From Polycladomyces abyssicola (GTDB lineage: Bacteria; Bacillota; Bacilli; Thermoactinomycetales; JIR-001), in NCBI RefSeq assembly GCF_018326425.1, contig NZ_AP024601.1, positions 2,158,001 to 2,222,000 of the forward strand: 64,000 bases of DNA, written 5' to 3'. The notes under the pieces were generated by a model. It worked only from the letters and a program-made list of their open reading frames with translations. It was not told where the DNA came from and did no database searches. Of the stretch, positions 1,876-55,410 are shown in pieces (within the stretch, counting starts at the first letter, position 1; every line of letters begins with the position of its first letter). The translations under genes were made by a program, and so were the position numbers.

Positions 1876-3083
1876 TCTCCTTGCAAAATCGGTTGTGGCA
1901 CCGCAATGTTTTCGACTGCATTGAAGTGTATCTTCAAATAAACTTTACCATTGTCCAGTCGCTCGTGCAAAACTTTTTCCTCCAACACCCTGCCTTCTTG
2001 CCCCAGACGGGCCAGTAAATCCGCACGGGCCCGCTCCATTCCCAAGCGGACCGCTTCTTCCCTCGTCAAGGTGCGTCGCACCCATTTCATCTCCATCCGT
2101 TTCTCATTGACCCATCCGATGGGCAGACGCCAATTACGCACTCGGACAGCGTGGAATTCCTGCATGGTTTCATATCGCTCAAAGGGAACCGGATTCCACC
2201 AGAAAGAAAGCCTCAAGACACGTGAACCTATATATAAGTGGGTGGAAACATGACGTTCGCCGGTGAACACTTTTCGTTTTTGTGTGAGTGGAATGACCAC
2301 TTCCGAGTCATACCACATGATCCCCAGCACTTTTCCTTTTGCCCCGACCAAGCGAAGCGATCCCTTTTCATCGGGGTTGCCGTAATAACCCGAAATCAAT
2401 ACCTGCCCCTTGCGCACCATATCAGAAACGCCCACCATGGGACGCCCCCGTTCCACACGCATGTCGTACACCATGGCATCCCGCTTGGCAATGAAGTTGA
2501 CGGGACCACGGTCATCGTTTTGTTCTGTGGGATCCACCCGCTTTTTTTCCACAACGGTGATAATTGCCCGCGTTCCCTCCAACCGGAATCCCACCCAGGA
2601 TACGTTTGGAAGATTACGGGACAATCGATACTGCACCGACTCCGTGTCAGGAAGGCGGTATTTCACCTGACCGACGTACACGCCCTCCTGCTTGGCCAAC
2701 TTAAGAATCTGTTCATCCGGGATGGTCTCATTTCCTTCTACATCCACCCGCCACACGATGGAGGTCATGACAAACAGCATCGCCAAAAACAGCACGATGC
2801 CCGCCATAAAGAATTTCCTCCGCTCAATCTTGTGCAACCAAAAAGGCAATCCCTTCTTGCCGACGATACGCATGTGGATTCCCGTACGCCGCACAAGAGG
2901 CACCATACGATAAAAATCTTGGACCGCCAGGGTAAACCGTAGTCGTTTCTCATCTTCCCAACGAATATTTTTCAGTTGGATTTCGGCATTCATCGCCCGA
3001 TTCAGCCACTGTGTCAAGTTGTCTCCTTTGAGTTCCACCCGTAGGTAACCGGTCATCGATCGTGGCCACTTGTGTCGCGTCAC
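1872..3083 (-). CDS. yqfD: Sporulation protein YqfD
   Basis: 403 residues from a GTG start with AGGAG 8 bases upstream; the site overlaps the end of yqfC. The cytoplasmic N-terminus is followed by one strong TM segment near residues 93-113 (AGIVLFLAMLFVMTSIVW) and a large outer domain rich in beta strand, as in the YqfD family. In B. subtilis yqfD is expressed in the mother cell under sigma-E and affects sporulation; that role is taken from the family. It lies between yqfC and phoH with a 4-base overlap downstream, so translational coupling is likely. A slightly shorter protein from an internal ATG (MTGYLRVELKG) is possible. Confidence 0.92.
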   Translation of the reverse strand: MTRHKWPRSMTGYLRVELKGDNLTQWLNRAMNAEIQLKNIRWEDEKRLRFTLAVQDFYRMVPLVRRTGIHMRIVGKKGLPFWLHKIERRKFFMAGIVLFLAMLFVMTSIVWRVDVEGNETIPDEQILKLAKQEGVYVGQVKYRLPDTESVQYRLSRNLPNVSWVGFRLEGTRAIITVVEKKRVDPTEQNDDRGPVNFIAKRDAMVYDMRVERGRPMVGVSDMVRKGQVLISGYYGNPDEKGSLRLVGAKGKVLGIMWYDSEVVIPLTQKRKVFTGERHVSTHLYIGSRVLRLSFWWNPVPFERYETMQEFHAVRVRNWRLPIGWVNEKRMEMKWVRRTLTREEAVRLGMERARADLLARLGQEGRVLEEKVLHERLDNGKVYLKIHFNAVENIAVPQPILQGE

Positions 3084-3623: not shown

Positions 3624-3815
3624 TCAGCTTTGTTGTTGTTGAGCCTGGCGAACCAATCGTTTCGTAATTTCCCCACCGACAGATCCGTTAGCACGGGCCG
3701 TTTCCGCTCCACCCAACGTCACGCCGAATTCTGCGGCAATCTCTTCTTTAAACTGATTGATGACCGCTCCAGCCCCCGGAACCAGCAACTTGTTGCTGCT
3801 GCGCGTGCGTGCCAT
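3624..3815 (-). CDS. Alpha/beta-type small acid-soluble spore protein
   Basis: 63 residues from ATG 3815 with AAAGGGGGTG just upstream. It has the SASP signature: [23 protein letters not shown], split here as [11 protein letters not shown] followed by [12 protein letters not shown], contains the EIA site cut by the germination protease GPR, and the C-terminal half carries [12 protein letters not shown], which matches the second conserved block. The tail is Gln-rich. These proteins coat and protect spore DNA and are degraded at germination. The gene sits between yqfC and floA, a place with no SASP gene in B. subtilis. Its own sigma-G-like promoter suggests it is a separate forespore unit. The GPR that would cleave it is at 26947-28074. 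Confidence 0.95.
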
Positions 3816-3836
3816 GGTTTCACCCCCTTTGTCGAT

Positions 3837-3865
3837 TAGTATGAACCGATGGGGGTGTGCCATCA
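3837..3865 (-). promoter_or_regulatory. Candidate sigma-G promoter for the SASP gene
   Basis: The minus strand carries CATACTA (3843-3837), a perfect forespore -10, and TGATG (3865-3861) 17 bases upstream as a near-consensus -35. It lies about 20 bases before the SASP ribosome site. Sigma-G control of alpha/beta SASP genes is established; this site is read from sequence only. Confidence 0.6.
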
Positions 3866-3944
3866 GTCGCACATGTTTCCATGTCAAACAACGGCAAAGC
3901 ATCCGCCTCGTCACGACAAGCATGTCAGTTCTTCACAATCAAGG

Positions 3945-3966
3945 AAAAACCCGACGTCATGTCGGG
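3945..3966 (-). terminator. Intrinsic terminator after the floA-linked ORF
   Basis: A 6-bp stem (CCCGAC/GTCGGG, 5-base loop) is followed on the minus strand by five T residues. It closes the transcript of the gene at 4041-4409 and separates it from the SASP unit. Confidence 0.75.
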
Positions 3967-4040
3967 TGAGTTTACAAAGTGGTATAGGGAGTTTATCACT
4001 CGTTCTTCGCTCAATCGGGATAAGCTACCGTAACGTGTCT

Positions 4041-22756: not shown

Positions 22757-24946
22757 TCATCCCGTCCGTACCGGTAACATCTCCATCACATTTTCAATGA
22801 TGGTGAGTCCTACGGAGCCGCCCGCCGTCATGATGGACTCCGGATGAAACTGCACGGCCCAAATGGGTAGTGACCGGTGTTCGACCGCCATCACGATGTC
22901 ATCTTCGGAACGGGCGATCATACGGAGTTCCTCGGGTACGCGGGATGCATACAGCGAGTGGTACAAACCAGCCGTGAACGTCTGAGGCACACCCTTCCAC
23001 AACGGACTCGCATGCATGATGGAAACGGTTCGCTTTTTTCCGTGCAACGGCTCAGGCAGAATTCCCAGTTCACCGCCGAAATGTTCAACCAGCCCCTGCA
23101 ATCCCAGACAGACACCAAACATGGGAAGTTGTTTTTCCAGGCATAAACGGATCGTTTCGTTCAATGCAAACTCCTCCGGACGTCCCGGACCCGGAGACAA
23201 CACCACCAGGTCGAAGTCTTCCCGTAACAGGGCATTTCGGGCCGCGTCCGCCCGCAAGGTGATCACATCCGCTCCTGTTCGGCGAAAATACCCAGCCAAT
23301 GTGTGGACAAAAGAGTCTTCATGGTCCACCAACAGGATCGATTTGCCCCGTCCGGTCTGCCGTTCGGCCGAAACGACGGTCGGCGGCTCATCACCGGCCT
23401 CTCGAATCGCCTGCAACAGAGCGGCCGCTTTTACCCGTGTCTCGCGGTCCTCCGTCTCGGGATCCGAGTCGAAAAGCAAAGTGGCTCCGACACGCACCCA
23501 CGCCCGTCCCAACTGCAATTTCACGGTGCGCAATGTGAGTCCGGTGTTGATATTCCCGTTGAACGCCAGATAACCGACAGCACCACCGTACCATTCGCGC
23601 GGGCTGTCCTCATGTTCCTCAATCCACCGGATTGCCGCCCGTTTTGGCGCACCTGTGATCGTAACTGCCCACATATGCGTCATAAAGGCATCGAGCGAAT
23701 CATACGGCGGACGCAACCGCCCTTCCACATGGTCTACGGTGTGGATGAGGTGCGAATACAATTCCGTCTGTCTACGACCGATCACCCGAACCGATCCCGG
23801 TTCGCAAATGCGGGATTTGTCGTTGCGATCCACATCGGTGCACATCGTCAATTCTGCTTCATCCTTGGTGGAATTGAGCAGCCGACGGATCTGCTCGGCA
23901 TCCTCCAGAGCGTCCGAACCGCGCGGGATCGTACCGGAGATGGGACACGTCTCCACCCGATCTCCCTCCACACGGACGAACATTTCCGGCGATGAGCCCA
24001 CCAAGTGGGCATCACCCAGATGGATCAAAAAGCAATAAGGGCTCGGATTGATCTGCTTCAGCCGGTCAAACACCCTGGTCGGGGCGGCGGCACAATCGGC
24101 GGTGAACATCTGCGTCGGCACCACTTCAAACAGATCACCCCTGCGAAACGCCTGTTTGGCCTTCCGCACCAGCTCCGGATAATGCCCGTCCGGGGTCGAT
24201 TTCATCGATTGGATCGGACTCGTTCGGGACAACGCTGCTCCTGTCGAGGTCGAGATTGGACGCTTGGGCAGCATCTCCGTCGATGTACCATCTACTGCAA
24301 ACTGATAGGTAAGATGATACGCACGTGCCATTTGGTGATCGATCACGGCAATCCGATCCGGCAGGTACAGAACCAAATCAGCTTGATCCGGTCGACGGTG
24401 ATGCTTCAGTTTCATCGGTTCCAGTTGGAACACCAAATCGTAACCGAACGCGCCATATAACCCGAGGAAAGCATCCTCGTCGGAGAAAAACAAATCCCGG
24501 ATCGCCCGGATGACGGTAAAAATGGAAGGCAAGCGCGTCCGCTCCTCTTCGCACCGCATGTCTTCCGGCCCCGGCTCTCTCACCGTTCCCCGGAGCAAAC
24601 GATGGTCCACATGCGTCATCCGTACGTCGGGTACACTTTGCAGTACACGTATGACAGCTTCCAGCAACACAACGCCATGCTCCCACAGCGCCCGCACCTC
24701 GAAGGTACGCCCGAAGCCGCGGATTTCAATCGGAGGATTCACCAAACCGATGTCCCACCGGGAGTACCGACCCGGATATTCGTAACAGCTGGCAAACCAA
24801 ATACCTTTGTGCCCGTCAATGGATCGGGCGACTTCATCCATGGCTTCCGCCGGTGCGACAGGCTCCGTCAACCTGCGGATATCCACACCGCCTTTCGTTC
24901 GGTAACTCAACACTTCCGTGGATGTGACTGTGGATAACAGAGACAC
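22757..24946 (-). CDS. trpE(G): Fused anthranilate synthase TrpE-TrpG
   Basis: 729 residues from a GTG with AAGGAGG 7 bases upstream. Residues about 1-525 are the chorismate-binding TrpE part; CYEYPGRYSRWD, RGDLFEVVPTQMF and the late VGATLLFDSDPETEDRE match the rhizobial/cyanobacterial fused clade. Residues about 540-729 are a class I glutamine amidotransferase with LLVDHEDSFVHTL, catalytic C613 in GVCLGLQG, and H701/E703 in QFHPES. It makes anthranilate from chorismate and glutamine in a single chain. No other trp genes are nearby, and it interrupts the conserved lepA-yqxA order. Upstream features suggest TRAP control. PhzE-like function is a less likely alternative. Confidence 0.93.
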   Translation of the reverse strand: MSLLSTVTSTEVLSYRTKGGVDIRRLTEPVAPAEAMDEVARSIDGHKGIWFASCYEYPGRYSRWDIGLVNPPIEIRGFGRTFEVRALWEHGVVLLEAVIRVLQSVPDVRMTHVDHRLLRGTVREPGPEDMRCEEERTRLPSIFTVIRAIRDLFFSDEDAFLGLYGAFGYDLVFQLEPMKLKHHRRPDQADLVLYLPDRIAVIDHQMARAYHLTYQFAVDGTSTEMLPKRPISTSTGAALSRTSPIQSMKSTPDGHYPELVRKAKQAFRRGDLFEVVPTQMFTADCAAAPTRVFDRLKQINPSPYCFLIHLGDAHLVGSSPEMFVRVEGDRVETCPISGTIPRGSDALEDAEQIRRLLNSTKDEAELTMCTDVDRNDKSRICEPGSVRVIGRRQTELYSHLIHTVDHVEGRLRPPYDSLDAFMTHMWAVTITGAPKRAAIRWIEEHEDSPREWYGGAVGYLAFNGNINTGLTLRTVKLQLGRAWVRVGATLLFDSDPETEDRETRVKAAALLQAIREAGDEPPTVVSAERQTGRGKSILLVDHEDSFVHTLAGYFRRTGADVITLRADAARNALLREDFDLVVLSPGPGRPEEFALNETIRLCLEKQLPMFGVCLGLQGLVEHFGGELGILPEPLHGKKRTVSIMHASPLWKGVPQTFTAGLYHSLYASRVPEELRMIARSEDDIVMAVEHRSLPIWAVQFHPESIMTAGGSVGLTIIENVMEMLPVRTG

Positions 24947-24952
24947 GAAAGT

Positions 24953-24971
24953 TCCTCCTTGTCAGGGAGGA
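24953..24971 (-). promoter_or_regulatory. Hairpin that would hide the trpEG ribosome-binding site
   Basis: On the minus strand TCCTCC, a 7-base loop and GGAGGA pair exactly, burying the AAGGAGG of trpEG. In B. subtilis trpE, TRAP binding favours such a Shine-Dalgarno-sequestering hairpin. Translational control is inferred. Confidence 0.55.
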
Positions 24972-25006
24972 GCACAGGAGAAGCGAGGGAGTGGGGAAGT
25001 GAGGAT

Positions 25007-25047
25007 AAAAAAACTTCTTCAGGGGGCATCCTTTACCGGACGCGCCC
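25007..25047 (-). terminator. Candidate attenuator hairpin in the trpEG leader
   Basis: A 10-position stem with one C-C mismatch (GGGCGCGTCC/GGATGCCCCC) is followed after 8 purine-rich bases by TTTTTTT on the minus strand. It lies just after the GAG array. The gap before the T run makes it a poor classic terminator, so transcription attenuation is uncertain. Confidence 0.4.
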
Positions 25048-25070: not shown

Positions 25071-25124
25071 CTTCTCTCCGACTCGTCTCTACTCGGCTCC
25101 GCTCCGCTCTTCCTGGCTCTGCTC
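25071..25124 (-). promoter_or_regulatory. Putative TRAP-binding site (GAG-triplet array) in the trpEG leader
   Basis: Read on the minus strand, triplets fall at exact 5-base steps from 25124 down to 25082: GAG, GAG, AGG, GAG, GAG, GAG, GAG, GAG, GAG. One more GAG comes after a 3-base spacer (25078-25076), and a final AAG at 25073-25071. That is nine exact GAG triplets out of eleven, with 2-3 base spacers, the arrangement bound by the 11-subunit tryptophan-activated TRAP (MtrB) protein on B. subtilis trp leader RNA. The array begins about 10 bases after the predicted transcription start. Binding is inferred. Confidence 0.8.
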
Positions 25125-25141: not shown

Positions 25142-25171
25142 ACTATACCACGGAATGACTTTCTCCATCAA
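25142..25171 (-). promoter_or_regulatory. Sigma-A promoter of trpEG
   Basis: TTGATG (25171-25166), 18-base spacer, TATAGT (25147-25142) on the minus strand. It gives a leader of about 190 bases containing the GAG array and the two hairpins. Confidence 0.75.
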
Positions 25172-29675: not shown

Positions 29676-29900
29676 AATAAAAAACCCCATCCCCATAGGG
29701 ACGAGGCATTCCTCGCGGTACCACCCTGCTTCGCCGAATATCGGCGCACTTGATTGCCATAACGGTTTGCGACCGGTTCCGCCTACTCGGACGATTGAGT
29801 ATCCTTTCGGGAAACGGCTCCGAAGCCCATTCACGCGGAAGCCCGGTTGACTCGCACCCACCGTCAACTCTCTGAACGGGCCGGTCCGCGCTACTCTTCT
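29676..29900 (-). ncRNA. Tryptophan T-box leader of trpS
   Basis: The minus strand carries the T-box sequence AGGGTGGTACCGCG (29727-29714), followed by a terminator hairpin (about 29706-29685) and TTTTTTATTTT. In Stem I the specifier is UGG (29829-29827), in the context UGAA-UGG-GC, which matches the UGAA-CUC-GC context of the leuS T-box in this window. Uncharged tRNA-Trp would favour antitermination. The 5' limit is approximate. Confidence 0.93.
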
Positions 29901-30001
29901 TCTTCTTCGCCTTTGTCAGTATCCGATTGTCCGTTTTGCGTCCGACGCTCACTTTCATCCCAACCCTGAAGGGCTGAGCTTTCCCGCTCACTCATGATAA
30001 C

Positions 30002-40852: not shown

Positions 40853-40889
40853 GCTAATCATGACAAAACCTAATAACTGACAATTTCAC

Positions 40890-41010
40890 ACTCCGAGCGC
40901 TGAATCCGTACAGGAACGGGGGAACCAATTTTTTTGGGGTGAATCCGGTGTCTTCACCGGTAGGGTCACTCTCACGGACCCGAATCCGTCAGCTAACCTC
41001 GTAAGCGTGC
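40890..41010 (+). ncRNA. Cyclic-di-AMP (ydaO/yuaA) riboswitch
   Basis: Conserved ydaO aptamer pieces appear in order: CGCTGAATCCGTACAGGAAC, then GGGGGAACC, GGGGTGAATCC, TAGGGTCA, ACCCGAATCCGTCAGCTAA and CCTCGTAAGCG. A terminator follows at 41047. High c-di-AMP should switch off the potassium importer downstream. Confidence 0.93.
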
Positions 41011-41046
41011 TGAGAGGGAAGTGTGCTTCTTCACATGACCGAAAGT

Positions 41047-48726: not shown

Positions 48727-48903
48727 GAATAAAAAAGCCCCTTCTCCGATAAGAGAAGAGGCTTTGGTTACGCCAGCTCTCCTCTCTTATCTCTCGGAAA
48801 CCGTTGGCGTCGGTTTCCGCAGGAATTGGCACCTTCCGGTTCGTACAGACCGGGGTTGCCGGGTTTCATCGGGCCAGTCCCTCCACCACTCTCGATAAGA
48901 GAT
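48727..48903 (-). ncRNA. SAM-I (S-box) riboswitch of the metY-metI-metC operon
   Basis: The minus strand reads GAGAGTGGTGGAGGGACTGG, CCGATGAAACCCGGCAACC, AAGGTGCCAATTCCTGC and later CGAGAGATAAGAGAGG: the standard S-box core with the P1 closing strand. A terminator hairpin built on GCCTCTTCTC/GAGAAGGGGC with TTTTTT follows (48765-48728). High SAM should stop transcription. Confidence 0.97.
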
Positions 48904-55114: not shown

Positions 55115-55410
55115 ACACCAAAATATGAAAACCTCCCGCCCCCAGCCTTCCTTGCTAGGGACGAGAGGTTAGTTCACAACTCCCGCGGTACCACCCTAGT
55201 TGACATTTGTACAGCTACTGCCGGACAAATGCCCACTCTCATCATCCGTAACGGGGATGTTCCGCCGGACAGTACTGAACATTCCCATCCGGAGCGATGA
55301 GGCGAGTTCATCCAACCTCTCTGATCGGCTTGCACCCGAACGCCGACTCTCTGAGCAGAGGAAGCTGGACTACTACTCCTCATCCAAGCTTTGTCGAATC
55401 TTGGCTTATC
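55115..55410 (-). ncRNA. Leucine T-box leader of leuS
   Basis: The T-box core AGGGTGGTACCGCGG lies at 55197-55183, followed by a terminator stem (CCTCTCGTCCC with GGGGGCGGGAGG) and TTTTCATATTTT. The specifier is CUC (55306-55304) in the context UGAA-CUC-GC, a leucine codon. Uncharged tRNA-Leu should promote readthrough. Limits are approximate. Confidence 0.95.

Follow-up and report, generated by a model that had tools for sequence, protein, structure and literature searches.

A TRAP-type triplet array before the lone fused trpEG gene of Polycladomyces abyssicola, apparently widespread in related bacteria and probably acting by hiding the Shine–Dalgarno sequence

Introduction

The fused anthranilate synthase gene trpEG of Polycladomyces abyssicola stands alone on the chromosome and is preceded by an array of 11 short triplets. 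This array is very probably the binding site of the tryptophan-responsive regulator TRAP (MtrB), which would probably block translation by way of a hairpin that hides the Shine–Dalgarno (SD) sequence. The parts of this reading differ in strength: TRAP very likely controls trpEG, its output there is probably for the most part translational, and the array may possibly serve as its own anti-sequestrator. Comparative data suggest that the arrangement of array and trpEG is widespread in related bacteria, where it probably acts in the same way, by SD hiding.

The B. subtilis TRAP literature cites Du and Babitzke (1998), and Gutierrez-Preciado and colleagues have reportedly contributed comparative papers. 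The sources used here describe two kinds of TRAP output. In B. subtilis, TRAP recognises 11 (G/U)AG repeats and causes transcription attenuation (PMC3913778); it can also lie over a ribosome-binding site, or promote a refolding that hides the site (PMC4347634). Two further papers describe an SD hairpin at B. subtilis trpE together with TRAP sites at trpG, trpP and ycbK (PMC11255114), and T-boxes on trpE (PMC2494555). Among the matches listed by a literature search mostly outside subscription journals, none describes a TRAP-controlled fused trpEG; to that extent, nothing contradicts the earlier note on this DNA, which had taken TRAP control of a lone fused gene to be undescribed.

The trpEG leader

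The features listed below, in the order of transcription, lie in the window, that is, the whole stretch of 64,000 nucleotides that was analysed; positions are those of the window.

25142..25171, minus strand: promoter-like element TTGATG-18-TATAGT with TG before the −10 (motif scan, congeners)
25071..25124, minus strand: TRAP-type array of 11 triplets (sequence reading, scoring, shuffles, congener alignment)
25112..25115, minus strand: CAGG word at triplet 3, which is off consensus; the word is complementary to the CCUGU tract that precedes the SD (word association across leaders)
25022..25047, minus strand: mid-leader hairpin without a T run directly after it, in a poorly conserved linker (folding)
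24970..24983, minus strand: pyrimidine tract preceding the SD hairpin; contains CCUGU at 24978-24974
24953..24971, minus strand: SD-sequestering hairpin UCCUCC-CUGACAA-GGAGGA, with the SD AAGGAGG at 24960-24954 (folding, congener identity)
22757..24946, minus strand: trpEG, fused anthranilate synthase of 729 aa with a GTG start (family models, ORF reading)

The gene encodes a full-length fused anthranilate synthase of the TrpE-clade3 type, with 1000 bits against TIGR01815 (cut-off 739) and 1056 bits against NF010081 (cut-off 645). It stands alone, flanked by a yqxA-like ORF and lepA, both named from ORF reading, and its start codon lies 124 bases beyond the end of the array.

Read on the minus strand from 25124 to 25071, the array is GAGcaGAGccAGGaaGAGcgGAGcgGAGccGAGtaGAGacGAGtcgGAGagAAG. 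Nine of the 11 triplets are GAG, while the third (AGG) and the eleventh (AAG) are off consensus. Nine spacers have two bases and one has three; triplets 1-9, eight of which are GAG, keep an exact 5-base period, and the 3-base spacer follows. All of this is seen in the minus-strand sequence, and the triplet counts, the period and the 3-base spacer are as the earlier note had described them. With nine GAG among 11 triplets, the leader falls within a definition of 9-11 (G/U)AG triplets separated by 2-3 bases. Dynamic-programming scoring of 11-triplet arrays, with spacers allowed to be 1-4 bases long, gives the array a score of 15.8; the runner-up on either strand of the 64-kb window scores 0.2, and none of 200 dinucleotide-shuffled versions of the leader reaches the score of the array.

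Seventeen bases separate the end of the promoter-like element from the array start. Where the earlier note had named a sigma-A promoter, this element is present and conserved in 29 of 30 columns (1/30 variable among three congeners), but the motif alone is a weak call because the region has two such sites when shuffles lead one to expect 0.7. The mid-leader hairpin has a U7 run 7-8 bases after it (the two together span 25047-25007, minus strand), which is too distant for a standard terminator.

Both congeners retain the array. Across the three congeners, variable columns amount to 19/75 upstream of the promoter, 0/17 between promoter and array, 3/55 in the array (two spacer substitutions and a 1-base indel before the last AAG), 20/81 in the mid linker and 2/47 in the tract and SD hairpin, the hairpin itself being identical in all three; among four-fold sites of trpEG, 115/342 are variable.

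The window holds other regulatory leaders. A T-box leader at trpS (29694-29916, minus strand; gene named by ORF reading) lies on the same strand as the trpEG array and 4.6 kb upstream of it, and another (55154-55395, minus strand) precedes a leuS-like gene, likewise named from ORF reading. A c-di-AMP riboswitch (40888-41023, plus strand) stands before a 609-aa permease-like ORF, and a SAM riboswitch (48784-48901, minus strand) before three consecutive sulphur-metabolism-like ORFs, with functions again taken from ORF reading.

mtrB and anti-TRAP

The host genome encodes MtrB (E 1.1e-41; 142.5 bits against PF02081, cut-off 21.3), which over 67 residues closely resembles TRAP chains of solved structure. 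By ORF reading, mtrB lies 3′ of a folE-like ORF, with a tRNA gene between the two. The gene is present in both congeners and in 39 of the 42 genomes of the host order. A PF15777 search of the host genome for anti-TRAP gave no match. The control search with this model matched B. subtilis and also three unrelated genomes, so that a match would have had low specificity. The earlier note had proposed a genome search for both proteins, of which mtrB was found and anti-TRAP was without a PF15777 match. It had also named two findings that would speak against TRAP, a lack of mtrB in the genome and its relatives and a loss of the array period; neither was observed, since the genome has mtrB and both congeners possess mtrB as well as the array.

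Distribution of fused trpEG, arrays and mtrB

Three of the 42 genomes representing the host order, probably the Thermoactinomycetales, have fused trpEG (1 of 27 genera), as do 15 of 398 genomes of a class sample (10 of 146 genera). At least 80 fused-trpEG loci from named genomes were retained, of which 27 belong to Bacilli. Among the matches listed, 25 of the 27 Bacilli loci carry clear arrays, each beyond all 200 shuffles. Together with the array itself, mtrB and the congeners, this count supports the TRAP control of trpEG suggested by the earlier note; TRAP would, with high probability, bind the leader and repress the gene. Array-bearing trpEG genes are found in Paenibacillus, Saccharibacillus, Tumebacillus, Pseudalkalibacillus, Sporolactobacillus, Terrilactibacillus, Brevibacillus, Shouchella, Rossellomorea and Hydrogenibacillus. 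Within flanks of up to 3 kb per side, 25 of the 27 Bacilli loci have no trp gene that could be found near trpEG; in L034 and L037, trpEG follows trpA. The array of L034 (Rossellomorea aquimaris) spans −48 to +5 relative to the trpEG start and lies over the SD and the start, a mode resembling that of trpG and trpP and not the one with a hairpin.

Some fused genes have a T-box. The trpEG locus of Lederbergia NSJ-179 is without an array (38/200 shuffles score as high) and has a T-box, and that of Sporolactobacillus inulinus has a T-box and a weak array over SD and start (2/200 shuffles as high). T-boxes (Rfam RF00230) before fused trpEG are located at 2705-2939 (plus strand) in L039, 2696-2936 (plus) in L044 and 3734-3975 (minus) in L176. 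The Lederbergia and S. inulinus genomes have mtrB, yet a T-box at trpEG; the regulator of this gene has apparently been exchanged.

mtrB was searched for in 40 of the at least 80 genomes, an author-chosen set of Bacilli, Syntrophomonas-type genomes and eight others, and is present in 27/27, 4/5 and 0/8 of these, respectively. Judged by score, none of the loci from the nine mtrB-less genomes has an array upstream of trpEG. The five Syntrophomonas-type loci, in which trpEG comes after trpA, have no full array upstream of trpEG, the best score being 2.2 with five GAG in phase; L049, L051, L055 and L105 combine this state with mtrB, and L105 is the one with five GAG in phase. In cyanobacterial and proteobacterial loci, no array score exceeds 0.4 within 700 bases upstream of the match, and a few reach 4.9 elsewhere in the locus.

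The class-level search gave 12 new loci. Five match earlier loci at 95-100% and were not recounted, and five further loci carry arrays. L171 (score 9.1) and L172 (score 10.1) stay outside later counts because their start codons were not placed; L171 also contains a T-box-like GGTGGCACC word without an Rfam match. Among ordinary trpE loci of the host order, 28/30 have high array scores (8.5 to 20.8, by score only, without shuffles).

A quick TrpEG tree of 53 rows, from which L172 was dropped as a 21-residue fragment, places the host genus beside Tumebacillus (SH-aLRT 92, below the 95 mark) on a long branch, and the array label needs four changes. On this basis it is plausible, though not proven, that the leader was inherited together with the gene.

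The trp operon and pabA

Five (G/U)AG triplets in an exact 5-base period (2-base spacing) occur at two places in the 3.2 Mb of the genome, a count that covers exact sites only and not looser ones. One is the trpEG leader, with two overlapping matches, and the other lies 180 bases before the trpD match. A reversed-pattern control is uninformative, because GAG reads identically backwards. The leader of trpD has ten (G/U)AG triplets and one off-consensus triplet, with a terminator at a distance of 76 bases from where the array starts; it has the make-up of a B. subtilis trp-type attenuator, in which a terminator overlaps or follows the array. The terminator core GACCAAAGC...GCTTTGGTC is shared with several trpE leaders of the host order.

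The genes behind this leader are arranged as aroF-aroB-(gap)-trpD-trpC-trpF-trpB-trpA-hisC-tyrA, without trpE (trpD named by family model, all others by ORF reading). No ordinary trpE in the host genome rises above the family cut-off. The best match, at 414 bits against a cut-off of 518, is read as pabB, and among the matches in relatives there is likewise a similar second copy. We infer that the trpD leader is the old trpE leader, which remained in place after trpE was lost.

In ordinary relatives, as is known from B. subtilis, PabA has to double as TrpG. A TRAP array over the pabA start, called by a 9-triplet score with at most 2/200 shuffles as high, is present in 23 of 28 loci outside the host genus, as opposed to 0 of 3 genus members; the scan covered 28 of the 31 non-genus genomes with a match, all but G003, G004 and G010. 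The five non-genus loci without an array are those of G016, which is without mtrB, G030, which has a second trpG match beside an array-less trpE, and three genomes of one genus, G039, G040 and G041 (L154, L142 and L161), which have trpE arrays and mtrB. In the host genus, PabA should no longer have to act as TrpG, and its TRAP site is gone.

Proposed mode of action

When tryptophan is plentiful, tryptophan-loaded TRAP would wrap the array, as the array itself, mtrB and the comparative pattern indicate. With the array occupied, the pyrimidine tract would be free to pair with the SD (UCCUCC:GGAGGA), and translation of trpEG would be blocked. When TRAP is empty, the GAG- and CAGG-rich array may perhaps pair with the tract and leave the SD more open, a step at which folding and complementarity only hint. 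TRAP binding might then release the CCUGU...UCCUC tract from the off-consensus CAGG triplet, so that the SD closes. The separate trpDCFBA operon has kept a TRAP leader with an intrinsic terminator, and its output would be transcription attenuation.

This division of labour draws on the terminators. An intrinsic terminator was sought in the trpEG leader of the window as a sign of attenuation, and none was found under strict or relaxed settings. A terminator follows the array in 1 of 33 trpEG leaders, where it is the SD hairpin itself, compared with 22 of 28 array-bearing trpE leaders of the host order (the first set is without L039 and L044, the second without the array-less L111 and L128). Since terminators are rare in trpEG leaders and common in trpE leaders, translational control via the SD hairpin is the likelier output. 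A rather unlikely alternative is that TRAP represses trpEG mainly at the level of transcription, through termination that needs no terminator, through pausing, or through the action of Rho on untranslated RNA. B. subtilis TRAP can terminate transcription without an intact attenuator, according to two papers (PMC3913778; PMC11255114), and the U7 run after the mid-leader hairpin would suit such a mode; these points have to be set against the terminator counts just given, and against an SD hairpin that is invariant in the congeners while the mid linker diverges. The results of folding, which favour this alternative in one respect, are as follows.

Downstream of the array, the window leader has an SD-sequestering hairpin (UCCUCC/GGAGGA, invariant in the three congeners), and local folds of 32 trpEG leaders, viewed by eye, place the SD in the 3′ arm of a hairpin. 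L034 and L044, whose arrays overlap the SD, and the array-less L039 are excluded from the accessibility set; they were folded for hairpin stability outside the 32-leader summary. The 32 hairpins have a mean z of −1.34, with 13/32 below −1.5. In the host genus, z is −0.3 to −0.7, not stabler than shuffled pyrimidine-rich linkers, and in six Saccharibacillus-type leaders it is −0.2 to +1.7.

When the array of the window leader is masked as TRAP-bound in the folding model, the mean unpaired probability of GGAGGA falls from ~0.35 (free) to 0.02 (bound); the trpEG start codon is predicted to be paired in both states. If the SD is taken as AAGGAGG, accessibility changes from 0.51 to 0.20, with shuffled linkers at 0.21 in the bound state and 12% of them changing as much. 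Over the 32 leaders, masked SD accessibility is 0.14, against 0.21 in the shuffled-linker control (Wilcoxon p 0.003), while the free-minus-bound difference is 0.13 against 0.09 and not larger (p 0.14); both tests treat related leaders as independent. Folding alone does not demonstrate a switch, because this difference is not above the control, and it is here that the transcriptional alternative gains some ground.

The words of the leaders add a further line of evidence. CAGG in the array and CCTGT in the linker occur together in 11 leaders, CAGG alone in four, CCTGT alone in one and neither in 16 (Fisher p 1e-4, with words picked after viewing the leaders and congeners counted separately). Of 19 four-letter words that could be tested in this way, CAGG with CCTG gives the strongest association (p 0.004). 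A check on the tree leaves only four independent pairs, which do not decide the matter. Taken together, folding and word association are suggestive of the array as a switch.

In the reading preferred here, SD hiding by TRAP, the main output of the trpEG leader has a reasonably good chance of being translational, through the SD hairpin, and the array may itself be the anti-sequestrator, although the balance leans somewhat against this. More speculative, and rather doubtful as a whole, is an extended proposal in which a terminator-less switch with a CAGG:CCUGU...UCCUC anti-sequestrator travelled as a module with the gene in Bacilli and enabled the loss of trpE and of the pabA site. Uptake of the fused gene would, in that case, have allowed the genus to lose both the trpE of its trp operon and the TRAP site at pabA.

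It is very improbable that the array is no TRAP site at all and is instead a purine-rich stretch retained for some other purpose, such as RNA stabilisation or another binder, or a decaying relic. Two of 11 triplets are indeed off consensus, and TRAP binding itself is a prediction, but the triplets are phase-exact with substitutions confined to spacers, mtrB is present, a second site stands at trpD, and the loci of the nine mtrB-less genomes have no array upstream of trpEG. That a T-box or other leader governs trpEG in place of TRAP can be dismissed almost entirely: T-boxes do precede the fused gene in Lederbergia and S. inulinus-like loci, and trpS in the window, but the trpEG leader has no Rfam match at gathering thresholds.

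Relation to known systems

The kind of control is known; what is new is the gene, the terminator-less leader, the breadth of its occurrence and the corresponding states of trpD and pabA. The findings suggest that one regulator has been fitted to the fused gene of a single genus in the order, and that the surrounding regulon has been rewired to match, with trpE off the operon, the attenuator on trpD and the TRAP site of pabA gone. There are many natural terminator-less TRAP leaders alongside attenuator leaders, all read by the same ring. Because both leader types occur naturally, comparison can be used to test what decides the output of a TRAP site, and naturally varied 11-triplet RNAs are available for TRAP-binding work.

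Like the trpEDCFBA leader of B. subtilis, which combines attenuation with an SD hairpin at trpE, the trpEG leader carries an 11-triplet TRAP array. It differs in that the gene is a lone fused trpEG, no terminator is found in its leader, and the terminator-bearing leader stands on trpD. In B. subtilis trpG (pabA), trpP and ycbK, TRAP likewise acts on translation initiation (PMC11255114). There, however, it covers the initiation region, whereas the array described here ends well upstream, 124 bases before the start; the fused trpEG of Rossellomorea represents the overlapping form, like those B. subtilis sites. A further difference from B. subtilis is that the host genus has no TRAP site at pabA. 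The T-box leaders of Lederbergia NSJ-179 and S. inulinus, finally, serve this fused gene too, in two genomes that possess mtrB as well, but their sensor is, by the definition of the family, a tRNA, and it is these leaders that match Rfam RF00230.
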